Source: Loxodes magnus (Eukaryota; Ciliophora; Karyorelictea; Loxodida; Loxodidae). From it: DNA of 64,000 bases. The first letter of the stretch is position 1, and each line of letters begins with the position of its first letter. This document shows, in pieces, positions 9,870 to 58,500 of this stretch. A program made the translations under genes and the position numbers. Below the pieces are notes generated by a model. It saw only the letters and a list, made by a program, of their open reading frames with translations, did no database searches and was not told the origin of the DNA. The DNA lies in NCBI GenBank assembly GCA_946699065.1, contig CAMPDV010000501.1, positions 1-64,000 on the forward strand, written 5' to 3'.

Positions 9870-12800
9870 TCAATGCTACTATATTTTCGAAACTAGACTA
9901 TTATTTATCCAAAACTCTTCAAAAATATCTCCATTTTTAGTGATCAATTTCCCTTATCCGTGCTTTTTGCCTTTTATCCAATCACCTTCATAAATATCCC
10001 CATTTATATAAAAGCAAACTCCCCTTCCTTATTTTTTTGCTTCATATCAATATCCTTCATAAATATCGCCGTTTTTAAATTTATATTTTCCTTATCCATA
10101 TTTTTTGTCTTAAAACCAATCACATTCATAACTATCTCCATTTATATAAATTTCCCATCCCTTACCTTATCTTTTTGCTTCATACCAGAATCCTTCATAA
10201 ATATCTCCGTTTATAAATTTATACTTTCCTTATCCATGTTTTTTATCTTAAAACCAATCACCTTCATAAATATCCCCATTTATATAAAATTCGATTCCTT
10301 TTCCTTATTTTTTCCCTTCATATCAGTACCCTTCATATACATTTCCGTTTTAATATTTATATTTTCCCTATCCATGTTTTTAATCTTATAATCAATCACC
10401 TTCATAACTTTCTTTATTTATAAAAATTTCGCTTCCTTTTCCTGTTCTTCGTCCTTCATGCAAAAACCTTCATAAGTATCCCCGTTTTTTTTAAAATATT
10501 TTCCTTAACCATGCATTTTGTCTTAAAACCATTCACCTTTATAACTATCTCCGTTTACAAAAAACTCGCTGCCTTTTCCTTATCTTTAAAGCTCATATCA
10601 CTTATCTTCAAAAATATTTTTATTTTTAGATTTATACTTTTCAAAACAAATTGTTTAGTCTTAAAATAATTCAACTTCATAATTGTCTCTATTTCGAAAA
10701 GGATTTCTTGTTTTTTCTTATCTTATTCCTTCATATCATAATCCTTCATATATATTTCCGTTTTTAAATTTATATTAACCTTATCCATGCATTTTGTCTT
10801 AAAACCAATCACCTTCATAACTATCTCCGTTAGAATAAATTTAAATTCCTTTTCCTTATCTATTTTCTACATTCCATTGTCCTTCATAAATATCGCCGTT
10901 TTTAAATTTATATTAACCTTATCCATGCATTTTGTCTTAGAATCAATAGCCTTCATAAATATCTCCATTTATATAAAAATCGATTCCTTTTCCTTATCTT
11001 TATTCTTCATGCCAAAATCCTTCATAAATATCTCCATTTTTAAATTTATATTTTCCTTATCCATGCATTTTGTCTTAGAATCAATCACCTTCATAAATAT
11101 CTCCATTTATATAAAATTAGATTCCTTTTCCTTATCTTTATCCTTCATTTCATTATCCTTCATAAATATCGCCGTTTTTAAATTTATATTAACCTTATCC
11201 ATGCATTTTGTCTTTTATCCAATCACCTTCATAAATATCCCCATTTATATAAAAGCAAACTCCCCTTCCTTATTTTTTTGCTTCATATCAATATCCTTCA
11301 TAAATATCGCCGTTTTTAAATTTATATTTTCCTTATCCATATTTTTTGTCTTAAAACCAATCACATTCATAACTATCTCCATTTATATAAAACTCACTTC
11401 TTTTTCCTTATCTTTTTCCTTCATACCAGGATTCTTCATAAATATCTCCGTTTATAAATTTATACTTTCCTTATCCATGTTTTTTATCTTAAAACCAATC
11501 ACCTTCATAAATATCCCCATTTATATAAAATTCGATTCCTTTTCCTTATTTTTTCCCTTCATATCAGTACCCTTCATATACATTTCCGTTTTAATATTTA
11601 TATTTTCCCTATCCATGTTTTTAATCTTATAATCAATCACCTTCATAACTTTATTTATTTGTTTAATACTGAATTACTTTTTAAATTTCATTTTTCTAAG
11701 ATAATATTCCTACTATATTTTTTTCATTTTTATATAAAGTTAGACCACTTTTAATTCATGTATTTTAGTTTTCTGCATTGCAAATTTTTTCATTTTTACA
11801 CTGTTACTATAAAAGATATTTTTATGTTAAATTTGGTTCCAATATTTTATTTAATATCATAATTTTATAAACATTTTATTCATTCTTATTGAATCACACT
11901 TTTCCAAAATTTTATCTTTTTTACTATAGTATTTAAACTTTTTGCTTTGTTTGCTTTTTTAAAAATTTCACCTGATTTCAATAATAATTTAGTTCTTCTT
12001 TAATATTTTAAAATTTCATACTTCTTTGATATTATTTATCAAATTCTAGTTATTAATCTAAGAAAAATTCAATTATTTTACTTAAAAAAAATTGGTTTAC
12101 ACTTCCATTATTTATTATTAATTGTTTATTTTATTTTATAATATAAAGCTATCATAAATATAGCATTTAATTTTCCTTTTCGACTACTTAAATTGTATTT
12201 TTCATTGTTTAAAACATTCACTAAAATAATTCGTTTTAAATTGCATCTAAATAGTTTTTATCGATCCTATTAATTTAAATAATTCTCTATGTTTATTGCA
12301 TTTTTCAGTTTCTTATATTAGCAAGATCATTTTACAAACTTATTATCTAATTTCCTTTTATTTTCAAAATAATTTGCATCTATTTTAATTTTATTAATTT
12401 TAAGCTTATCAAATATATGTTTTACTATATAAATTTCTTAAACTTTCAAATCTATTAAAATACCTTTTCCATGTTTTTAGCCATTCATAAAAAATCCCTA
12501 GAACAATATTTTATCTGATTAATTAAATATTTTCCCATAGCCATGTGGTTTTTAGTATGAATCTATTTCTCCTTCATAGATTTCTTATTCATTTATATTT
12601 ATTAAATAAATTTCTTTGCTTTCAATACGCGCTTTCGTATGCATTATTTCTCTAAATCTTTCTATAAGATTAGAAATTATGTTATCATTTATTTATAATT
12701 GAGGAAATTAAACGCTTTGATTTAAAAACTTTATGTCTAAGCTCTAATTTGGAATTAGTATTAGTTAGGAGTATACTTTTTTATCAAATTCATAGTAAAC

Positions 12801-17230: not shown

Positions 17231-18262
17231 AATAAGTTAATTTCCTTATGACATTTTATTTATTTTCTTAAATTACCGTTAAAGCTGCTTAAGCCATTTA
17301 AAGCTAAGACTTATAATTAAATAACTAAAGACTTAATTTATACTATTTATCAATCTAATTTACTATGCTTATATCTCTTAAATGCTATATACCTTACAAT
17401 CTTAATCTTATTTAGCTTTATCTATAAAGTAATATTTCTCTTCTGCTTTTGCCTACAAAAGGTAGATAACTGCATAGTGAATATAGTAAGGCTAATATTG
17501 GATAGTTAAACTGATAAGTGTGGAAATAATTTACTTAATTGAAATAAATGGAAGCAATAGTTGATTTCATGTTAAACTAACTATTAAGGATATTTACTTA
17601 ATTTCCTTTATTTTAAGTAGTTTCAGTAAAATAAGAAAATAATTAATAAACTAAAATCTTAAGAGATTGATCCGCCAGAAAACCTACTATACAGAAATAA
17701 ATTTTCGTTTAAATAATACACAAAACTCTCTTAATTTAAAATCGAGTTTTAGTACTTAATTCGTTGCTAAAACTGAAGAAATTATTTTATATAAATAATC
17801 CAAGCAAACTTTCCGTAATTTTATGACTATAAAATTATATAAGCTTAATATCTATAACCGACTATATAACACTAATTATTTTAATCTCTTAAACTTATAT
17901 TTAAGATAGTAATTATATAAGGTATATATATAATCCTAAATATTACTTAGCTTGCTTATCAATTTATTTTATAATTAATCTCTTTTCTTTATTTTTCTGC
18001 AGATAATTAAGGTGAAAAGTTAAGACATATCTCTCTAATAAAGCTTTATTCATTTTTGTATCGTAAGCCTTAGTGATTTAGTAAATTCTATAAGTTAATT
18101 CTTAATATACTTGATAGTTTAATCTAACTGCTTATTAAGATTAATTGAGGACATTAATTATTATATCCGATAAATGGAAACTTAAATCCATTGAAGCTTG
18201 TTCAATTCTTAGAAAATTCCAAACGAAGTCAAGTAATTTAATTAGATAAAGCTAAAGTTAAA
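17231..18262 (-). other. Possible minus-strand coding, unresolved
   Basis: Between the zinc-knuckle copy and the kinase-MORN start. The minus strand can be read as helical protein (for example ALLERYVLTFHLNYLQKNKE near 18.0 kb), and a second ATG (MAQAALTV) lies at about 17.3 kb. It could be an upstream part of the kinase-MORN gene, a separate gene, or chance. A TTAACT 6 bp tandem run lies at about 18,250-18,275. Confidence 0.3.
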
Positions 18263-19117
18263 GTTAAAGTTAAAAAGCTTTGTTAAAGCCTTAGTAGTCA
18301 GCCATCTGACCTATTCTATCAGCTTGTCTCTATTAGTTTTTCTTGAATTCCTACTAGGCTTAGTTAGGCGGTGTAGCACTTCATTAGTGCACCATCCTTT
18401 AATATTCGGAATAGTTTTGGTCTTGCACTTAGCGTTCCTAATTATTTATCCAAGGATTAAGATTTGAATTAAATAATTTTTTTCGATAAATTTTTCCGCT
18501 TTATGTTGGATATATCCTAAATAGTTTTCTAAAAATATCTTATTTATTCTTTCTTTAAATTTCGCTTAGTTAGTAGCAGTATTTTCATTGATATTATTTA
18601 TTGCACACGTAGCATTTTATTTTCTTTTAAACTATTATTTCTGTAACACTTATTTAATTTAAATTTACTACTTATTTTAAATAAACGTTTACTTTTTATT
18701 TTAATTTGAGGCTTCATTTTCTATTTCCATAGGATCTGATTAATTCCGTTAAAACAAAAATGGCGTAACCTGAATTTATTATTAAATTTAAAGAATTCTT
18801 TGTTCCAGTTTGTTTTCTATTTCTTATGATGATTAATATTGTTTCTCAAGTAAAGACGTTATTAGTTATTCTAATTTTTCTACTTTATCAGTGAGGTATC
18901 TATTTTTAAACATAAACTCTTTTAATGACTTAGATAATATTTCTATTTGAGTTTGTGTCGGAAGTTTTTTTAATTCTGGATTTCCAAGTGGTTAATGTTC
19001 GTCATATCAATCATATTTCTCACTTTCACTCATTGTAATTATTTCGCTTTTTTATTTTTTAGAGAATTTTCCTGTTTAAATGTTTTGTTCAAAGTTCTGT
19101 TATTTCTTAGAAGCCAT
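18263..19117 (-). mobile_element. Zinc-knuckle Gag/ORF1-like element, right copy
   Basis: Inverted, closely similar copy of 700-1,546. The minus-strand frame opens MASKKQQNFEQ at 19,117 and runs through MSESEKYD, the acidic DPMEIGNE motif, the CCHC knuckle and a C-terminal WSATPPNQAQQEF segment. This copy looks whole. The two copies flank about 17 kb that includes the kinase-MORN gene. High similarity over the whole length implies a recent transposition or an inverted segmental duplication. Confidence 0.6.
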
Positions 19118-20552
19118 TTTAAATTTAATATAATAAAGGTTTCTTATTTTTTTATTTTGAAGAAAAATAAAATATTTTATAATAATTTCCTTAAAATTAT
19201 ATAAAGGTATAATTTTTATTTTTATTTAATTTTTTATCATATTTTTCATAACTGTTTGATCTAAAATTATTGGCTTATTATAAAAATATGTTTATAAGTT
19301 TAATATTACTGTTTATATAATGCAATATAAATTTAATAGAAGAATAGAAATTTGTTTATTTTATTATATTTTTATTAGATTTTTTAAATTAAGAGTTATA
19401 AATTTTTATTTCTTTAATCAAATATTTAATTATTCTTGTGTTTTTTAATCTCATTATATTATATTATAATTAATAGTTAAAATTAAATACAAACAAATAG
19501 TTTTAATTTTTTTATATATAAGAATTTAAACTAAAAATAGAAACATAAATTTTTTATTAAAAATTAAAATGTAATTAATTAGATTTTTGTAATAAATTAT
19601 GCTTTGGTAAGTCTTTTAACATCATATATCAAACTTTAGATAAACTAATATATCTTTATAAAATAATTAAAAAAGGCTAATAATTTTTCTTTAGTTTTAT
19701 CATATTCCAAAGATAAGATTTTCATATTAGATAAAATTTAATAGTATAAAATATTTTATAACATATTATATGAAATTAGAAAAGCAGTTAAAGCAAGATA
19801 GATAAAAACAAAATAATTAAAATAATATTAATTGAAGTATTACACTCAAAACAAAAAAAACTAGCGATAATTTTTTAATTTTATATAATTGAGTGAATAA
19901 GAAGAGAATATAGAAGAAACAAAAGAACAGGAGTAAGAAGAATTAACTAGAGGTTGATAATAAGCTTACATAAGCTCTTATACTTAACATAATTCGCATG
20001 AAATTAAGTAGTGAATTTATGTTCCAATACTCAAAGTATTTTTTATCTTATTATTATTATATAATTGAGTGAAGAAAAAATTAATTTATTTATGAAAATA
20101 TAAAAAATTTTATTTAAATGAATTGAACATAATATAAAAACTTTTTTCTCACTTATATTTTTTAAAATAGGAAATAGTTAAAATATAAAAATACATAAAT
20201 TATTATAATTTAAATTTAAAAGATTAAGATTAAAAAATTAAAAAATATATAAACCTTTAAATTTGATGCTTTTGTTATAATATCAAAAATATATAAAATA
20301 GGCATAAATAAAAAATTAAAATATAATGCTTTATTTGAAAAATTGATGAATTTTATAACTATAAGTAATAATTTCATTAAAATTAATTTTAATTTAAATT
20401 AATATTTATTTTAATTTGAAGTTAATAAATTAAAAAAAAGGAAATTAAAATATGTTATTACTTTTAATTTAATGAATAAAATCTGTTGAATTATAAATTT
20501 TTTTTAATTTAATTATTATTATTATATTTGATTAATTAGTTGATTTTCATTA
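19118..20552. other. AT-rich stretch, nothing recognised
   Basis: Very high AT with long A and T runs; no motif, RNA gene or repeat could be supported. Confidence 0.5.
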
Positions 20553-20608
20553 TAAATAAATAAAATTGATTATATAGCACGTTGCACCTTGTTGGCACAG
20601 CTTTTTTA
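20553..20608 (-). repeat. Isolated, diverged copy of the S1/S2 shared tail
   Basis: AAATAAATAAAATTGATTAT followed by ATAGCACGTTGCACCTTG and TTGGCACAGC matches the common 3' tail of the S1 and S2 repeats, with several differences. No S1 or S2 body follows, as expected for a 5'-truncated retroposon copy. Confidence 0.6.
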
Positions 20609-20961
20609 TTTATCCTTATTATTAATATTAATATTAAAAAAGTGTTCTCATTAAAAATAAGCTTATTGTAGTTTTATTTTTATTTCAACTTTAACAAAAT
20701 ATTATATCTTTTATTCAAAATTTAAGAAAAGAGTAATTTATAATTGTCCTAGTCAGTCTAAGAGTTTTTTATTTAAATTATTTAAAAGGATTAAATTGTT
20801 TATTTTGTATTTGAATAATCTTCCTTAAATTTAAATAGATATATTTTATAATAAACATTTGTATTTTTAATATTTAGCTAATTCTAAATAGATTAAATTA
20901 GAATAGATAGCTTTCTTTATTATTAACATATTTAAATACTTTTTATTACTATTTAATTAAA

Positions 20962-21033
20962 TCCGCATTAGTCTAGTGGTCAGGATATTCGGCTCTCACC
21001 CGAAAGACCCGGGTTCAAGCCCCGGATGCGGAA
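20962..21033 (+). tRNA. tRNA-Glu (CTC)
   Basis: Full cloverleaf: acceptor TCCGCAT/ATGCGGA, D arm TAGTCTAGTGGTCAGGAT, anticodon arm TTCGG-CTCTCAC-CCGAA with anticodon CTC, T arm CCCGGGTTCAAGCCCCGG. No intron. A second copy is at 32,390-32,461. It faces the tRNA-Lys 37 bp away. Confidence 0.95.
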
Positions 21034-21070
21034 CTATTTTGTTATTTCTAATAAGTAATAATATTAAAAA

Positions 21071-21143
21071 CGCCCAACGTGGGGCTCGAACCTACGACCA
21101 CCAGATTAAGAGTCTGACGCTCTACCGACTGAGCTAGCCGGGC
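21071..21143 (-). tRNA. tRNA-Lys (CTT)
   Basis: On the minus strand: acceptor GCCCGGC pairing with GTTGGGC, D arm TAGCTCAGTCGGTAGAGC, anticodon loop ACTCTTAAT with anticodon CTT, T loop GGTTCGAGCC. It differs from the 32,280 copy by one base in the T stem (GTAGG here, GTGGG there). Convergent with tRNA-Glu. Confidence 0.95.
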
Positions 21144-21180
21144 TTTACTTTATAAAAATGAAATAACTTAAATAATAAAT

Positions 21181-23221
21181 AAATTTATCTAAATTAGAAA
21201 TTATTATTTAACTAAGTTATTTATTTAATCTCCTATTTTTGCTTTACACACTAACAAAATTATAGCTAATATTTAGATATTTAAAATAACTTTATTTAAA
21301 CCTTAGTTATTTAAGCTTATTTTATAATTAAGTTAAAGAGTTTTTTTTAAATAAAATCTTATAAAAATAGATAATTTCTAATTAATTAATTTTAGTTTCA
21401 TAATTTTCTTTTATACTTTAAAGTTATTTTTTATTTAATATGACAAAATGTTTGGAAAATCAAATTTACTATAAATCCATTTAGTAATTATTATCGCAAT
21501 CCCATAAATATGCCAAGTTAATTTATTAAAGTTATGGAGTTAGGATGTAAATAATATTTAATATTTGAAAGCAGAAGAAAAAAATATAAAACTAAGCGTA
21601 TTTTATCTTTAATCAGTCTAAAAGTTTCTTTCTAAACATAAGTTTAGTTTTTTCTAATATTTTATTAAATAAAAATAATAGAAAGATAATTATTTTTAAG
21701 CTTTACTTTATCAAATGATTTATAACTTTATTTATTTATTTTTATATTAGAAGATAATATTAATTTTAGATAAAAGATAAAGTGATTTAAAAGTCTGACA
21801 AATTTTGGATTAGATGCTTTCTAATTTCTTTAAAGTAAAAGATAGTAGTTTATTTATTATTAAAGCTATTACTTGACTTTTTTAAAATAAGCTGACAAAA
21901 TAAAGGAATCATTTATCTACATAATCAAATAACTTTTATTTATAAAGTATTAATTTAAATTAAATTAACTAATTAAGCAGCACTATTATTTCAACAATAG
22001 CTTTGATAAACTTTGCATTTATACAAAAAAAGACTTTATAAGTTAAAGAAGCGAAATTGATAACTGAACAATTTATTATAAAACTCAAACAAAACATACA
22101 AGTTCTTCTGCTTTATAGCAAAGCAAGATATGAATTAGTTTTTAAATAGAATTTTTAGAAAAAAACATTAAAAGTGAAAATCTTCTAAATTTTGATTGCT
22201 AAGTTGTTTCTAAATTTTTATGAATTGAAGATATTTATAACTCTTCATCAAATAAAACTTAGGTAATAAAGGAGACTGAATATGTTTATATAAAACTTAA
22301 TTTAATCTTAGCGCTTTGGTTTTATTACAAGTGAACATAATTAGAAAACTAAGTTCGTCAATAAATTCCTTGTTTTTCTTTTATATTTTAATTAATTTAA
22401 AATAAGCTATAAGTATTTGATATTTTTTAGTTATAATAAGCTTCTTTGCGTAAATAAATTATTAAAAGCATAAAAATTTAAAATTTTTCTTTTTTTGTTT
22501 ATTTTTTAATTAACTAAATCTTTAAATTTTTTCTTTAATTTGGAGTCTTAAAAAAATTATTTTGAATATGCTTTTTAAATATAAGTTACTAGTTTTGCAT
22601 AATATCTTTTAAGTTCTAGTAAATAATTATAAAGATAGAAAGAGCTATCTACTAGTAATTTAGAATAAAAATTAAAAATTAAAAGAATCTTATTAAATCA
22701 AAAAACTTTGCCAGTTTAATATATATTTATTTTAATTATTCCACCTAATAATTATTAATTATTAATAGATGCTCGATTGTAAGAATTTTTATTTTATAGA
22801 TTATGAAATAAAAGAAATAATTATTATTTTAGCCTATTATAAGATTCTTTCTTATGCTTATTTGTTTAACCATTAATTAATACAGTTCTTTATTTAAAAA
22901 ATTTTATAAAAAACGTGTAGTACAAGATTCATCTAAGAAATTTAAGATTTTTATTTTAAATAATTTTGATTTTCTTCAATTGAAATGTTTCTTATCTTAT
23001 ATTAATCTCTCGAAATTTAAATAAAACTTAAATGTAAAAAAAATAAAAATAAAAATTGATAGATATTGTCTTAATTGTAATTTGTAAGCTATTAATTAAG
23101 ATTTTTTATTAATTTGTTGTTTATTTTCTAACTCTTTAGTTGATTTTAATTTCTATCAAATAATTAAGAATTAAATTAATAGCTCAACTTTAAATTTGAT
23201 ATTTTTTATTTATTTTATAAA
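21181..23221. other. AT-rich intergenic stretch
   Basis: No gene, RNA or repeat recognised. It separates the tRNA pair from the kelch gene and must hold the latter's promoter; no specific element could be picked out. Confidence 0.5.
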
Positions 23222-24187
23222 ATGAATTTTCATACTAAGTCAGAATTGATTGTCAAGTCTTTGTGTCTTAGAAAAATTTGCAAAAAGTCATAGAAGGCAA
23301 ATTAGCTTGGATTATTCTTTAGTAAAATACCTTTGATGATCAAAAAGTACGAAATATGTCCAAATTTCTGCTAATAAAAGTTTTAAATGCACTCTACTAT
23401 TCTGTATTCATCCAATACCTTGTCTTCCTTCAATTTTAGAAGTGGCTTATTAACAAAATCTACAGTAAAAGAAATTTCCGAAACTTATAGGGATAATTAT
23501 TACGTTGAATAGATAAAAGATAACTTATTAATCATTTCTGGAGGAAGTGAATCTTCAAAAAGATTCACTATTCTTCAGATAGAAAATGATTAATATAAAG
23601 CCTAAGAGTTGGAAACTCTTTTTAGTAGAAAACACCATAGAACTATATTTGATAATAAAGCTTCGGTTTATTTAATAGGAGGAGAAACTACCAAATCACA
23701 TGAAGTTTTTAGCATGAAAACTTTAAAGTTTACTCCTTGTTTCGAAGACTTTCCAATAAGACTAAGAACCTTTGGACTTTGCCTAGTAAAAGAAGATTTC
23801 TATGTTTTTGGCGGGTTAGACTTTGATAAAAGTGCTGCTTAAAATTCTATTTATACTTATTCAAATATTGACTAGAAATGAAGACTCTTATAAATTTAAC
23901 TTTCGGATAAAAGTTCATCAAGTGCTGCTTATTCAAAAAAAGATTAAAGCTGCTATATCTGATGTAGTGGTGGGGATTTAAGGAGAACTTTTGCTTATGA
24001 TTTCAAATAGCTAGCAGATCATGGAGAAAAAATGGATGAACCTTCTTATATTCCAAGCCTATAGTTCAATGAGATTACATATTTTTCTTTAAAAACTCAG
24101 GAGAACTATGGTTATATGAAATAAAAGGAGGAAAATGGAATTGAGCGAATACTTGTTGGGAAAAGATTAGAATTTGATAAAATATGA
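23222..24187 (+). CDS. Kelch-repeat protein (321 aa), complete
   Basis: Single uninterrupted frame from ATG to TGA under UAR = Gln. Kelch signatures: LLIISGGSESSKRFTI, VYLIGGETTKSHEVFSM, DFYVFGGLDFD and IYTYSNIDQKWRLLQIQ (double Gly, hydrophobic strand, then Tyr...Trp). The conserved blade tryptophan (residue 220) is a TGA at 23,879, and another TGA at 23,960 gives YIWCSGG. Both lie well upstream of the terminal TGA (24,185-24,187), so UGA must be Trp inside and stop at the end. Only three to four blades are evident, fewer than the six of typical kelch propellers. Kelch propellers mediate protein-protein contacts; the partner is unknown. AT-rich DNA flanks it on both sides. Confidence 0.85.
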
Positions 24188-24927
24188 AAATGAAAATAAA
24201 CTAATGTATTAACTTAAATTATATTAAATAGTTAAAAAATATTTATTTAATGTAGAATATTTTATTATCTTTTATTAAGATAAATCAGATTTAAGCTTTT
24301 CAATAAATTAATTAAAACTCTCTTTAATTGCAATTATTTAAATTATAAGAATAAATATATAAAGCATAGTGTAGATTCAATAAATAGCTTAGCTATCCTC
24401 ATATATCTTAATGCTTATATAAAATAGTTTTAACATTAAAATTAAAGGAGAAATTAATTACCCATAAATGTTTTATTCTTAGTAAAGAGATAAATAAAAA
24501 TTCTTAAAAGTTTAAATAATTATAGAAAATAACTATTTACTAAAGTTTATAAATTAAATTACTAATAATTATAAAAGTCTTACAACTAACTAAAATTAAA
24601 TAGATTTAGTATGCAATGCTTGTATAAGTGAATATATAAGCTTTTTAATATATTATATTTAATCAATAATAATTATTTAAGAGATAAAGCTATTTTATTA
24701 TATTGCAATAAAGTAACTTATAAAATATAAAGATAAGCTTTTATGGAGAATTTAATTAATAAAACTTATTATTATTTGAAAATTATTTTTATTTCATTTT
24801 AATTTAGCTATTTATTTAGAAATATCTTAAGTTGTTAATTATTTTAATATGTTGAGAATAAAGCTATTAGCTTTAATGTATAAAATAAATAGTAAACAAT
24901 TAATTAATAAATCTTTTATTATATATA
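24188..24927. other. AT-rich 3' flank of the kelch gene
   Basis: No gene or repeat recognised. Confidence 0.5.
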
Positions 24928-25364
24928 AAATGGATGTCGGTCGCGTCAGTCAAACTAGTAGGTAATCTGGTGCAGTGTATACTGCATTGCGAGTAATCTC
25001 GCACTAGATGCCACCACGGGGAAGGGTGGATAAGCTCCGTTGAGACATCCCTAACTTATTCTGAGGGTTCTCTCTAGCAGTATGAAAGTTTGACTGATGG
25101 GCCTTCTAATTACCAACTTAATAACTATCTCTTATTTGGACCTTATTCAAGAAGACTGAAGCATTTGACTCAAGATTTTAGAATAATTTTTAATAAGAAG
25201 ATTCCCCATTTGGAGAAGCTGACATAACTCATCGGACCTCTAGGATTTTAACAAGAATCATGAGAACATTTTCTTAATATTAAATATTAACATTGAAAGA
25301 GCTGCGCGCCATCGAGGTGCTACGCGCCCTATAATCATTTTTATTTATTTATTTATTATTTATA
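24928..25364 (+). repeat. S2 repeat, copy 1 (SINE-like)
   Basis: About 435 bp, much more GC-rich than its surroundings. It starts ATGGATGTCGGTCGCGTCAG, contains ACCACGGGGAAGGGTGG, and ends in the tail GAGCTGCGCGCCATCGAGG...ATAATCA plus TTTA repeats. A near-identical inverted copy lies at 31,238-31,672, including the exact form of the TTTA run. The tail is shared with S1 although the bodies differ. Confidence 0.8.
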
Positions 25365-25828
25365 ACCTTTTTTGTTCTTTGTCCAAGAGTTAAGTATTAC
25401 TATCAAATGTTTTTTTAAATATATCTATCAAGATAAATTTTGTGCTTCAAAGTGTTTTTTTTGATTTTTATAACGATAAAGTAAAATAATAGATTTAATA
25501 AAAATTTTTATAATTACTCATAAATTGAGGAATTGCTTTATAAAAGTTTTTGAGAACTTCAAAAGACTTAAATTAGATAGTAGTAATAATAAATAAAACA
25601 ATCATATAATTAAAGGATTAAATTAAATACAAATTTAGTTAATAATGCTGTATACAGTAGATCTCTTTTAATTTATAATATAATTAAGTTTTTTAATTTA
25701 ATATGTCTTAAAACTTAAAAATGTGGTTGATTAGAAGAACTTATAAATGATTATTTAATTTTCTTCATCATAAAAGAATATATTAGGAAATTTTTTAAGA
25801 TAAAAGATAAATAATCAAAATGGAAAAA
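25365..25828. other. AT-rich stretch, nothing recognised
   Basis: Between the S2 repeat and the tRNA-Leu-like gene; no supported feature. Confidence 0.4.
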
Positions 25829-29556: not shown

Positions 29557-31237
29557 TAAAGTATTTTATTTTATAAAGTTTTATATTAATTAGAAAAATT
29601 AAAAATTAAAGTAATTTTAATTAAATTTTATCTAAATTAATTAAATCCATTTATCAAATTAAAAAAAATTAAATCTATCATTAATAAGTCAAATCTTAGT
29701 TTATATGTGAAAAAAATGTTCTAGAAGCAAAAATAATATCCACTATCTACTATTTTAAATATTCTAACTATTAAATTATTAAGAAAAGATATTATTATTT
29801 TTAAGAAGTAAGCAATAGAAAGATTTTAAACTAAAATAAGCTTAATTATAATATTTTAATATATTTTCTAATAAATAATCTCTATTTAATATTTTTAGGA
29901 CTAGTTATTAATCTCTTAAATTTGTTTTATATAATTAATTTAGTCGCTTTTATTTTAGAATAATCCATTTTTTAGTATTTTTACTAAAAATTTGATTATT
30001 TTTTTAATTATTAAACGATTAAGGTTAAACCTTAGATCTTCTATTATTGGGTTTGTATATATTAAAGTAATTTATCTTTTATTTATTTACTTTCTTATAT
30101 TAAGTAAAATCATATTTATTTCTTAGAAAAATTTGAACAATTAAAAGAAAGCCATATAATTTAAGTAGATATAATAGATTTATAGAAATAGAGTAAAAAG
30201 CATACAAAAAAAGGATATAAAAGGTGTGTTACCAGCATCTCAATAATTATAAGAGAAACTTGAAAGGCTGCAATGATAAAAGAAAATACATGCAGCATAA
30301 TTTATTTATCTTATAATTAGTAAATTACTTATTACATATCTTTTTAGTTTAATATAAATTAAATAGAGCCAAAACTTACTCTGTTGTATGTGAAAAATTT
30401 TTAAACATGCAATCAAGAAATGAGAAATAAATTATCTTATGTAGAAAATTATTAAATAGAATGCTAAGTAAAGAATCTTCAAGACAGATAATTTTTCTGA
30501 AATGTAAATTAACAAAGCTAACAGAATAAAATATATAGACTTTAAATCTAAATTAAATAGGAATATCTATTAGAGCAAGTGCTAAATTTAATGAAAATGA
30601 TGTAAAAACATGGAATGTGTAGCCTAATAATATATGGAAAAATAGAAATATTTTAGACAGAAGAATAAGCCTCCTAAAAAATAGAGAAATATGTAATTTA
30701 TAAAAAAATAACAAGCATTTCTATTAGATTAAATAAAGTTTTAAAACTTTAATTATAAATAAATATTAAGAAAGAGATATAAAATATATTAAAAAGTAAA
30801 TAAACTTAATTTTTAGATAATTAGTTCATTTATGTAAAAAAATTAATAATTGATGCAGAAAATTTATCTAATAAAATATGCTCATAATTATAAAATAAAT
30901 AAATTGATATATTTATACTAAAAGGCTAATGTTGCTAATATAGAAATTAAAATATTTTAGAAGAACTATATTCAAGGTATTGGCCTATAAAAAGCGTAAA
31001 ATTATCTGATCTTTTACTATGTATAAACTTAAAAATATTGAATCTTTGATATATTGATTTGGAAGATTTAAATTTAACTTTCTTCTAAAATTTAGTAATT
31101 TTAAAATACATTTATTTATATTTTTCAGATAATATAACAAGCTAGTTTTTATTATATTATTGCTTTAAATTGAATCAAAAAGAGATATAAATCAAAATAA
31201 AAAATCTGAATAGTAATACTCTAACACAAATATAGAT
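29557..31237. other. AT-rich stretch with weak plus-strand coding look
   Basis: Around 30,130-30,730 the plus strand reads as basic, helical protein segments (for example EQLKESHIIQVDIIDLQKQ and LLNRMLSKESSRQIIFLK) in changing frames. I recognise no family and cannot set ends. Confidence 0.25.
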
Positions 31238-31672
31238 AAATAATAAATAAATAAATAAAAATGATTATAGAGCGCGTAGCACCTCGATGACGCGCAGCTC
31301 TTTCAATATTAATATTTAATATTAAGAAAATGTTCTCATGATTCTTGTTAAATCCTAGAGGTCCGATGAGTTATGTCAGCTTCTCCAAATGGGGAATCTT
31401 CTTATTAAAAATTATTCTAAAATCTTGAGTCAAATGCTTCAGTCTTCTTGAATAAGGTCCAAATAAGAGATAGTTATTAAGTTGGTAATTAGAAGGCCCA
31501 TCAGTCAAACTTTCATACTGCTAGAGAGAAACCTCAGAATAAGTTAGGGATGCCTCAACGGAGCTTATCCACCCTTCCCCGTGGTGGCGTCTAGTGCGAG
31601 ATTACTCGCAATGCAGTATACACTGCACCAGATTACCTACTAGTTTGACTGACGCGGCCGACATCCATTTTA
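31238..31672 (-). repeat. S2 repeat, copy 2 (SINE-like)
   Basis: Inverted, near-identical copy of 24,928-25,364, with the 3' tail and TTTA run toward the interior. About 6 kb separates the two. Small differences include CGGCCGCG for CGGTCGCG near the 5' end and a base missing in the tail hairpin. Confidence 0.8.
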
Positions 31673-32244
31673 TTTAATAATTATAATAATAATTAAAATT
31701 TTTGTTTTATTTATTTATGTCCTAATTTAAATCAAATAAGTCTAAATAAAGAGTAAATAAAAATGTTTTTAAATATATATATATAGTTAGAAAATATAAA
31801 TTAAAAGAGATTATAAATAACTACTAAAAATATAATAATTAATAAATAAATTATTTAATATGCTGTATTATTTAAGATTTAGCTAACTTTTGTAATTTTA
31901 TTAAGTAAGCATATTTAGTTTATAAGATTAAATTTTTAAGGAAACAATTGAAAAATATTATTTATCAAATTAAATACTTTCAAGTATTTTAGTTTGAAAA
32001 GTAGGAAAACTAAAAAAATATAAATAAAACAATAAAATTTGCTTAATTTAATTTTAAAATTTTATAAACTTTTAAATCTAAATCTCCTAAACTGAAATAT
32101 TAACTAAATTTAAAATAACTAAGATATAAATAATTATGATTTAAAGGTCTTAATATATGTAGAAATATTGTTAATTTAATTAAATAAGTTTAATTATTTT
32201 AAACAAAAAATATAATTTATATAAACATTTCTAATATTTAGGAT
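31673..32244. other. AT-rich stretch, nothing recognised
   Basis: Only simple AT patterns, including a short TA run near 31,777. Confidence 0.45.
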
Positions 32245-32279
32245 ACTTTATTTAAGTTATTTCATTCTTATAAAGTAAA

Positions 32280-32352
32280 GCCCGGCTAGCTCAGTCGGTA
32301 GAGCGTCAGACTCTTAATCTGGTGGTCGTGGGTTCGAGCCCCACGTTGGGCG
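32280..32352 (+). tRNA. tRNA-Lys (CTT), second copy
   Basis: Same cloverleaf as the 21,071 copy with T stem GTGGG-TTCGAGC, which pairs better than the GTAGG of the first copy. Anticodon CTT. Confidence 0.95.
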
Positions 32353-32389
32353 TTTTTAATATTATTACTTATTAGAAATAACAAAATAG

Positions 32390-32461
32390 TTCCGCATCCG
32401 GGGCTTGAACCCGGGTCTTTCGGGTGAGAGCCGAATATCCTGACCACTAGACTAATGCGGA
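32390..32461 (-). tRNA. tRNA-Glu (CTC), second copy
   Basis: Same sequence as the 20,962 copy as far as I can read, anticodon CTC, convergent with tRNA-Lys at the same spacing. Confidence 0.95.
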
Positions 32462-32497
32462 TTTAATTAAATAGTAATAAAAAGTATTTAAATAAAC

Positions 32498-34619
32498 TTG
32501 ATATAAAGCAAGTCTATTATTCTACCCCCTAGTAATCTTTTAAATCTTGAAAATATTTAGTAAAAAATAATTTAATAAGTTTCATTGTATGAACTTTAAA
32601 ATAATTAAAAAGGCTTTTTATAGAATTTTTTAATTTTTAAAGAAATAAAAAATATTTAACTACATAATAATTAAAAAAATATAATATAAAATTTTTTAAT
32701 TCATTTTTTTCATATCATTTACGAAATAAAAAATGTTGAAATAAGAATTTTAATAGTGTTAATTTCTTAATAAAATTCGGTATCTTGACAAAATATTCTC
32801 AATCTATAATTAAAGAGCTAAATTATTTTATATTAATTATATTGCTATTTATTCTCTATAAGTTATAAAAGCATTTTTGATTTAAGAAATATAACTTAAA
32901 CATATTTGTTATTTCTTCAAATAAATAATAAATTTCTTATATATCTCTATTAAGATATAAAGTTACAAATCATTTAAGTATATATTTTATAATAATAATT
33001 TGTATTTAAAATTAAATATTTCAAGTACGATGGAAAAACTAATACTTAATAAATAAGCCACTCTTTAATTTATTTTAGCTTGCCTCATATTAATAATATT
33101 TTTAATATATAGTTCCCAGACATATCTATATACTATATTTATATTCTATTTATTTTTAGTTTCTTAAATATTTTTTTAAAATTATATCTAAAAAAGAATG
33201 TTGAAAATCTTTATGCTATGTATAAATACATATAAAAAAAGAAGACATGTGTAATACTTTTTCTATCAAAGATTTATTAATAATTAAATTTTATTGCAAA
33301 AAACTCTATTTACTTTAAAAAATGTAAATATTATTCTTTTATCAAATAAATTTAAGTAAGAAGATTAATATTTATATAACTTAATTTAGAAGGTATATTA
33401 AAATACTGTGAATAAATAGAATGAAATAATTAAAAACAATTAAGTAAAGTATAAATAGAATTTAAATTAAATAATTAAAAAATGTAAAAGTATTAAGTTT
33501 GAATAGTTATTATAATAATAACAGACTTAGTTCTTTATTTTATATTCCTTTCTAAATCAACTAATATACTTCTCTTTTTTTATATAAACCAAAAATTATA
33601 AAAGTTAAAGAAATTCTTATATGAATATTAAAATATATAAATAAAAGCTTTGAAGGGCTATAAGAAAAGATTCTTCATGATATAAAATGCATATTTTAGC
33701 AAATATAATCTTTCAATTTCTTGAGCTCAAATCCTATTTATTACTCATATTTAAAGGTATAAGGTTTATCTGCTATATTTAAAAAATAACTAAAGCTTAA
33801 GCCTAACTAATAATTTTTGTGATATAGCCTATAATCTCGAATAATATACTAATGTATATTAATTAAATGTTTGAAGATTATATTATTTTAATACTCCAGC
33901 ATTTAAAAGGTCAGAATTTACATGATTGTTTTACTATCTTTGAAAGACTTATACAAAGAATATTTTAATTTACGATTGAATTTTATTTATGAAGTATGAA
34001 TGGTATTACCAAACTAAATATTTATTTCATAGTATTAAATTAAATTTGCATCATAATACAAACTTTTTTAACTTAAGAAAGCAAAAGTTTTTAAATTTAA
34101 TAATGAAATGGTATTAAATTAAATTTTATTTGTACTATTTAGCATTTTAAGATGATAATCATTACATTTATTTAATTTCTTCTTTAAATCACACAAAATT
34201 CTTTTCTAAAATTTATTATAATGCATGGAATAAAATTTCCAGTATACTTATATCATAAAATATTAGTTTAAAGATGAAAATGAAATAATTTATTTTTTAG
34301 ATAATTGAGATTTATATTATTAACTTTATAATTTATTTTACTAATTACTAAATCTCTTTAAAATGTTTTTAAATTTGTTAGATTAAATATGTTCATTTGC
34401 CTTTTTTATAATTATAATTAAAATTTTTGAATGAAGATTTACTAGAATATTTAAAAAAATAATTAGATTTTAGTATTAAAATAATAGTAATTCCTATTTC
34501 AATTAGATATTATTTAATTAGTTACTGAATTTAAATTTTTATTTAATTAATATTTTCCAAAATGTATATTTTGCAGTTAAATTACTGAATATTTTAAATT
34601 CAATTAAAAGAAATAATTT
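32498..34619. other. AT-rich stretch, nothing recognised
   Basis: No gene, RNA or repeat supported. Confidence 0.45.
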
Positions 34620-55575: not shown

Positions 55576-58500
55576 TCACAATGAAAGATACCTCTCTCCC
55601 ATTAGTCTCACATTCATCTACTCCATTGCCACTCCCTCAAAGTCACATTGATGCACCTTCAAACCATGCCTTCCTATCATCCTCTTTAACACATAATCCC
55701 GATGATCCTTTGATGCCTCCCATATTTTGATTGTTTTATCATGGCTTCCCGATATTAAATACTTAGAGTCACTTGATAATACCAGAGAAGAAACAGAATT
55801 AGTATGACCCTCTAATGTTCTTATAAGTTCATATGATTACATGTCCCATATACTTATTGTTTTATCCCAACTTCCAGATATTAAATACTTAGAGTTACTT
55901 GATAATACCAGAGAAAGAATAGGTAAAGTATGACCCTCTAATGTTCTTATAAGCTCATATGTTTACATGTCCCATATACTTATTGTTGTATCACTTCCCG
56001 ATATTAAATACTTAGAGTCACTTGATAATACCAGAGAAAGAATAGGTAAAGTATGACCCTCTAATGTTCTTATAAGCTCATATGTTTACATGTCCCATAT
56101 CACTATTGTTGTATCACTTCCCGATATTAAATACTTAGAGTCACTTGATAATACCAGAGAAGTAACATAAGAAGTATGATCAAATATTGTTCTTATGAGC
56201 TCATATGTTTACATGTCCCATATATTTATTGTTCTATCATCACCTCCAGATATTAAATACTTAGAGTCACTTGATAATACCAGAGAATTAACATAAGAAG
56301 TATGACCCTCTAATGTTCTTATAAGCTCATATGTTTACATGTCCCATATCCTTATTGCTGTATCATAACTTCCTGATATTAAATACTTAGAGTCACTTGA
56401 TAATACCAGAGAAGTAGCATAAGAAGTATGACCCTCTAATGTTCTTATGAGCTCATATGTTTACATGTCCCATATATTTATTGTTTTATCATCACTTCCT
56501 GATATTAAATACTTAGAGTCACTTGATAATACCAGAGAATTAACAGAAGAAGTATGTCTTTATAGAGGCTTAGTAAGATTATCTACCTACATGTCCCATA
56601 TCCTTATTGTTTTATCATAACTTCCCGATATTAAATACTTAGAGTCACTTGATAATACCAGAGAATAAACAGAACCAGTATGACCCTCTAATGGTCTTAT
56701 AAGCTCATATGTTTGCATGTCCCATATCCTTATTGTTGTATCCTCACTTCCTGATATTAAATACTTAGAGTTACTTGATAATACCAGAGAAGTAACAGAA
56801 CTAGTATGACCCTCTAATGTTCTTATAAGCTCATATGTTTACATGTCCCATATCCTTATTGTTTTATCACGACTTCCAGATATTAAATACTTAGAGTCAC
56901 TTGATAATACCAGAGATTTAACAGAACCAGTATGACCCTATAATGTTCTTATAAGCTCATATGTTTACATGTCCCATATCCTTATTGTTTCATCACGACT
57001 TCCAGATATTAAATACTTAGAGTCACTTGATAATACCAGAGATTTAACAGAACCAGTATGACCCTATAATGTTCTTATAAGCTCATATGTTTACATGTCC
57101 CATATCCTTATTGTTTTATCACTTCCTGATATTAAATACTTAGAGTCACTTGATAATACCAGAGAAGTAACACGATGAGTATGACCCTCTAATGTTCTTA
57201 TAAGCTCATATGTTTACATGTCCCATATCCTTATTGTTTCATCACGACTTCCCGATATTAAATACTTAGAGTCACTTGATAATACCAGAGATTTAACAGA
57301 ATTAGTATGACCCTCTAATGTTCTTATAAGCTCATATGATTACATGTCCGATATCATTATTGTTTTATCCCAACTTCCAGATATTAAATACTTAGAGTCA
57401 CTTGATAATACCAGAGAATTAACACCATCAGTATGACCGACTAAGGTTGGCATTTAACCAAAATTAACCTAACTCATATTTGCATCATTGAATTTACAAT
57501 TCCTCAACCAAGCTCCTCTAAAATTCACCCCTGATAAATTAGCACCACTCATATCACAACCATCAAACACCGAATCACTCAAATCCGCCCCAGGCACCTA
57601 GATCTCCCGAAGATCTGTCATCTACGTAAACTGATAATCCATCCAATTCAATATTGTTATAAAATTAGCACCCACTGTTTATAAAGCTTTATTGGATCTT
57701 GTCCACTTCACTATCTCCAATAAATTTTATTGAAATGTAACTGAACTATCAATCTCACTTATAAACTACTAGATCTCCTTATTATCCACTATCGAATATC
57801 TGTTTATTTCGTGAGCCTCTATTGAATTTATGCTATTTTGCTAATTTAAGACTAAATTTACTATATTCCTTGCCACATAGTAATCCCTTATCGAAGCATG
57901 AATAAACTCAAACCTCTTTTAACCATTTTCCTCTTTTATCTATATCAAACATCCTATGTGGTTGGAACTCTCAGTTATTTTCTTTATTCATTCTATATTT
58001 GTTTTTTCAAAGCCTTCCCAATTTACCTAACCAGTTAATAATTACCATGATGCTTATATTTATATACCTTCAAAGATTTTTGGCTTTATCTCAATTTCTT
58101 AAGCTTCCTTTTGTTATTCTTATAATTTTCCTTTCGTTCTTTCATTTCATTGATCTATAAAAATCTGATATATTTAAGCCTTAGTTATTTACTTAAAATT
58201 TCCACATTTTAAATGCTTTATTATTACTTCCTCCCTTAAACAGATATTTATTAAAAAGGGGTTTTCTAATATTTCGATTAAACCAGGAATACCTTTAATA
58301 AAACCCATTACTTCTTCAATAGATTTCCATTTCGTAGGTTACTCTCTTTATGTTTAACTTTAAGTTTAGCTTTACTCTTAGCTTTGATTCTTCAATACTA
58401 GTTAAACATAATTTTCTATTTACTAACTATTAAAAGGCTTAATGAATAATTCTTATAACTCTTGCGTTTAAGCTTCTTCATTTTTGTAAGGTGAAAAATA

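Follow-up and report, generated by a model that had tools for sequence, protein, structure and literature searches.

The kelch-like reading frame at 23222-24187 of the window (the whole 64,000-nucleotide stretch of Loxodes magnus DNA analysed here, positions 1 to 64,000 of the forward strand of contig CAMPDV010000501.1) is very probably a recently duplicated copy of a large L. magnus kelch-repeat family, frameshifted at a TA tract and probably non-functional. The original prediction had presented this frame as one complete gene in which UGA serves both as tryptophan and as stop. The organism does use UGA in both ways, as already published for L. magnus, whose 706-Mbp macronuclear assembly is described under NCBI table 27, UGA serving as Trp or stop (PMC11441545). 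This single gene does not demonstrate the two uses, because the copy is frameshifted at residues 276-277. The principal features of the locus are as follows.

23222-24187, plus strand: kelch open reading frame, with ATG at 23222, 321 codons and then TGA at 24185-24187
23222-24046, plus strand: first 275 residues of the kelch copy, in the frame native to the family, as in the single-frame copies
24047-24051, plus strand: TA tract shortened by four bases relative to other copies (alignment and tract counts); the frameshift point, residues 276-277
24053-24187, plus strand: out-of-frame tail, residues 278-321, with the TGA at 24185-24187 (peptide scores in nine distant single-frame relatives)
21723-25574, no strand assigned: duplicated segment around the kelch gene, at least this long (alignments of L003, L004 and L005)

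Translation with table 27 gave what had been described, namely 16 in-frame TAA or TAG codons, TGA at residues 220 and 247, and a terminal TGA. The frame is open under this code, and to that extent the description of an uninterrupted kelch frame stands; as evidence its openness carries no weight, because all three stop codons may be sense, and TGA was absent from 5116 of 9115 sampled plus-strand stretches of 46 codons in the window (56%). The encoded protein scored above the Pfam cut-offs for Kelch_6 (36 bits, cut-off 25.3) and Kelch_4 (24, cut-off 21.6) and below their own cut-offs for Kelch_1 (18.9), Kelch_2 (19.1), Kelch_3 (18.2) and PF24681 (38). A search of the assembly (705,730,643 bases in 7843 contigs) with this protein returned at least 131 matched stretches, window included, a figure drawn from the best 124 of 2076 candidates, and most of these contain in-frame TGA, TAG and TAA. 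For codon comparisons, 60 places were fetched by rank, with evident duplicates skipped, and together with the window make up the 61 family sequences used below; one of the 60, L044, is the window's own locus on another contig. Long TGA-free frames of 1126 codons on the plus strand and 803 codons on the minus strand also occur in the window, overlapping long tandem repeats at 9917-11660 and 55718-57448 whose units of ∼138 and 126 bp are multiples of three.

The break in the frame is visible at the DNA level. In an alignment with 19 close copies, the TA tract is four bases shorter in the window alone, all 19 keeping these bases, and genome-wide, with up to two mismatches allowed, the short tract was found at 2 places and the long tract at 30. 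The two short-tract places are the window and contig C3149, which represent one locus on two contigs. After the long tract comes YIYSKPIVQWDYIFFFKNSGELWLYEIKGGKWN, a peptide that is shared by the distant copies L042, L051, L052 and L062 and, more loosely, by L059, L060, L064 and L067, each in the frame of its own upstream part. When six probes along the protein were used, 37 of the 61 sequences held one frame and 24 broke, with the window among the latter. In nine single-frame relatives (44-61% protein identity) the frame is held through a kelch-like blade at the C terminus, a region that the window copy enters four bases out of phase.

The same distinction is seen in the scores of the two possible C-terminal peptides, the native one reaching 101-182 in nine distant single-frame relatives compared with 39-98 for the window's shifted one. 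Relative to L011, changes per position in the native C-terminal frame were 0.131/0.117/0.179 over 20 mid-distance copies and 0.270/0.233/0.445 over nine distant copies, with the third position highest in both; L043 was additionally left out of the mid set, and the nine distant copies are those of the pN/pS comparison given below. It is the other frame that distant relatives conserve, which places residues 278-321 and the TGA at 24185 out of frame. Judged by its homologues, the window copy consequently lacks a single frame reaching from start codon to stop, and with four bases missing from the TA tract relative to the close copies it is not the complete gene proposed. The TGA at 24185 is not the stop of the family, and the 75 codons counted from the last internal TGA measure only the distance to a TGA in the wrong frame. 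An intron at the break was considered, introns in L. magnus being reported as 16-25 bp long (PMC11441545), and was rejected by eye, as no GT able to open an intron of that length occurs in the 75 bases preceding the tract.

The gene belongs to a duplicated segment, because similarity runs on into the flanking DNA: L004 aligned over 21723-25574 and L005 over 21723-25529, both at 99.3%, and L003 over 21714-25685 at 95.3%. As the compared loci extend 1.5 kb beyond the gene, the length of the segment is a minimum. The ATG is lost in seven of the 19 close copies. The pN/pS ratio against the window was 0.48 over the 19 close copies, 0.42 over the mid group and 0.23 over the distant one, rates by which neutral decay is neither shown nor excluded; 49 of the 60 fetched copies were used, without L012, L020, L032, L033, L044, L046, L050, L058, L061, L065 and L068, some of them being near-duplicates. 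Because 0.48 is below 1, plain neutrality is not indicated for the recent copies, some of which may be functional.

The stretch C3149:47000-53481 (L112, L044) corresponds to window 18100-24531 as its second contig. Beside the short tract, the alignment of 4.7 kb of C3149 with window 18100-22756 shows 3 mismatches and opens 49 gaps, and in the gene part C3149 differs from the window only by indels of one or two bases, alignment ends apart. This stretch has hardly any substitutions but numerous small indels, and is probably an unpolished assembly duplicate. Two further repeats were observed in the surrounding sequence. An inverted repeat of 484 bp (95.7% identity) joins window 24883-25363 and 31236-31716, and its arm at 24883-25363 may be a small mobile insertion, L007 being without ∼430 bp there. 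A divergent tRNA-Glu(CTC)/tRNA-Lys(CTT) pair at 20899-21175 has an inverted copy, 96% identical, ∼11 kb away at 32248-32524.

The two internal TGAs lie upstream of the break, and both are best read as tryptophan codons.

23879-23881, plus strand: predicted sense TGA, residue 220, the conserved kelch blade Trp (61 family sequences, PDB matches)
23960-23962, plus strand: predicted sense TGA, residue 247 (61 family sequences)

Across the 61 family sequences, codon 220 is TGA in 55, TGG in three (L060, L061 and L064, the first two apparently near-duplicates), ATG in one, AGA in one and unaligned in one, and codon 247 is TGA in 57, TGG in one (L052), AGA in two and TTA in one. At two further Trp columns, 298 and 307 in L011 numbering, the commonest codon is TGG (28/61 and 57/61), with TGA in its place in three copies each, one of which is the poorly aligned L043. 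In the best-aligned stretch, Trp stands opposite residue 220 in all four of the solved kelch proteins matched, with chain E-values that are weak (0.0008 to 0.009). The interchange of TGA and TGG at columns 220, 247, 298 and 307, together with the Trp of the PDB kelch structures at 220, supports the reading of UGA as Trp. The identification of residue 220 as a conserved blade Trp was borne out, as was Trp at residue 247. The comparison with homologues, which the original prediction had itself named as one check that could overturn these assignments, upheld them, TGG replacing TGA in relatives.

The expected tRNAs were sought genome-wide, as had been suggested, and genes of the predicted kinds were found. 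A tRNA-Trp(CCA) pattern gave 136 matches against 32 for the reversed pattern. Forty-eight of these run head-to-tail in ∼187-bp units at C67:482323-491172 (L075-L101), and at least 45 run head-to-tail in ∼241-bp units at C148:157295-167902. The C67 copies read (loci L075 and L090) have a 4-bp anticodon stem, with A27xC43 and the anticodon CCA, and in the single gene C148:155464 the 27-43 pair is likewise broken (T27xC43); the 4-bp stem is established for these genes. The genome thus contains tRNA-Trp(CCA) genes of the 4-bp-stem type, defined by a broken 27-43 pair and a CCA anticodon. Two dispersed tRNA-Trp(CCA) genes on C110 (L102, L103) keep the fifth pair, giving a 5-bp stem, and have weaker T stems. 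For a UCA anticodon in the CTTCARA loop form, the genome gave 23 matches compared with 40 in the control and so no excess; a tRNA-like repeat from this pattern (L105-L107, three of the 23 places) had no ARAGORN or Rfam match.

For the reassigned UAR codons, the UUA pattern gave 199 matches against 28 reversed and the CUA pattern 86 against 12. ARAGORN folded one UUA and one CUA gene, which it labels tRNA-Stop and tRNA-Pyl, and found no tRNA at the third place tried (L111). The 16 UAR codons of the frame and the UUA and CUA genes, multi-copy by pattern, are as expected if UAA and UAG are read as Gln by cognate tRNAs. With TGA/TGG interchange and the expected tRNAs present, the karyorelict code that had been proposed (UAR as Gln, UGA as Trp or stop) agrees with that published for L. 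magnus. On the side of termination, three matches to PF03463 were found in the genome, the best on C2 and two on C196. The C2 match was rejected as eRF1, its translation reading by eye like Pelota instead. The C196 match L070 is eRF1-like and has GRAQNIKSR where TASNIKS is the usual eRF1 motif; the other, L071, has a similar score and lies 35 kb away.

Three other explanations of the locus were weighed against a frameshifted duplicate. The TGAs at 220 and 247 could be nonsense mutations, if the gene is dead and the ciliate uses UGA solely as a stop, a view with which the frameshift and the position of the copy in a repeated segment agree. The same TGAs are nevertheless present in distant relatives at a pN/pS of 0.23 against the window (nine copies, eight of them single-frame), TGG takes the place of TGA at the same columns, and the 4-bp-stem tRNA-Trp is present. 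In an outside control, in-frame TGA was also found in 15 of 33 dynein matches (UAR in 32 of 33). This explanation is accordingly very hard to sustain. The four-base difference could also be an assembly or consensus error, the true locus being in frame and a normal gene of the karyorelict code. The change does sit in a dinucleotide repeat, and the 4705 bases of C3149 aligned to the window, with as many as 49 gap openings against 3 mismatches, demonstrate that the assembly contains indel errors. The short tract is however identical on both contigs, unlike the scattered one- and two-base indels of C3149; since both contigs represent the same locus, this is weak evidence against a shared error, and we regard an error as unlikely though not negligible.

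Alternatively, the shifted tail might be translated, yielding a variant kelch protein with a new C terminus that ends at TGA 24185. There is no TGA in the shifted frame before 24185, and L009 and L010 end in the same tail frame through other indels, which counts against the frameshift reading, even if their high rank is partly owed to a query that included the shifted tail. Against a translated tail, a TGA-free run of this length occurs at more than half of the sampled positions, in distant relatives the native peptide far outscores the shifted one, and the shifted tail displaces a kelch-like blade. A translated variant is for these reasons improbable, and a frameshifted, probably non-functional duplicate remains the preferred reading.

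On that reading, UAA and UAG would be decoded as Gln by cognate tRNAs and internal UGA as Trp by tRNA-Trp(CCA) with a 4-bp anticodon stem, each tRNA presumably being charged to match, and termination would take place at a UGA close to the end of the mRNA, proximity to the poly-A tail being reported to decide between stop and sense UGA (PMC11441545). The TGAs at 220 and 247 would be ordinary sense UGA codons. A four-base contraction of the TA tract would have shifted the frame at residues 276-277, and TGA 24185 would be the first that the wrong frame reaches, placed by chance 10 bases past the likely terminal TGA of the family. Beyond the frameshift, the native frame holds three TGAs of its own.

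24070-24072, plus strand: native-frame TGA past the frameshift (residue 285 of L011), TGA in 51 of 61 sequences
24142-24144, plus strand: native-frame TGA (residue 309 of L011), either a sense codon or a premature stop (codon column, 61 sequences)
24175-24177, plus strand: native-frame TGA (codon 320 of L011), likely stop of the subfamily

In L011, a native-frame copy, in-frame TGAs stand at 220, 247, 285, 309 and 320. Since L011-like copies carry several in-frame TGAs, a statement on dual UGA use can rest on copies other than the window's. At column 285, TGG was found in no well-aligned copy among the 61, only in the poorly aligned L043, so that Trp is unsupported there. The candidates for the native stop are the TGAs at 24142 and 24175. 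Codon 309 is TGA in 19 sequences, TCA in 28, TTA in five, TAA in four, TGG in one, TGT in one and unaligned in three; the close subfamily has TGA here, unlike most relatives, whose codon is TCA, TTA or TAA. The likely stop, TGA 320, follows 11 codons downstream, and codon 309 falls within the reported zone of coding-UGA depletion. It is conceivable, at rather long odds, that decoding of the UGA at 309 is split between Trp and termination, so that two C termini result, which would make it a natural test site; the frameshift of the window would then add a third, new tail.

Taken together, these data give a known code and a broken example of it, and what they yield is a corrected reading of the gene and a caution against trusting open frames in codes with few stops. 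That L. magnus uses UGA in both ways is genuine and remarkable, but already known. In a code that reads two or three of the stop codons as sense, a copy that has been frameshifted remains open and appears to be a complete gene, so that homology, and not an open frame, must show completeness. The kelch family itself offers natural TGA/TGG sites and near-stop TGA sites at which the effect of position on UGA reading could be tested.

The code followed here is the karyorelict code of NCBI table 27 as reported for L. magnus (PMC11441545), with the same UAR as Gln, internal UGA as Trp and UGA as sole stop; compared with that account there is nothing new in the code, and the window copy is frameshifted. 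The protein shares the GG and Trp blade motifs of kelch-repeat proteins (Pfam Kelch_6 and Kelch_4; KLHL3, 4ch9; KBTBD10, 2woz). Unlike known kelch-repeat proteins, it belongs to a large family of members of ∼320 residues each inside one genome, with 24 of 61 sequences frame-broken, and the window copy has in addition lost its last blade. A tRNA-Trp(CCA) with a 4-bp stem is reported in Blastocrithidia nonstop, Condylostoma, Blepharisma and Loxodes (PMC13092985, PMC12005148), and the C67 genes read and one C148 gene similarly are without the 27-43 pair; what differs from those systems is that tandem arrays are found here, together with two dispersed genes that have a 5-bp stem.
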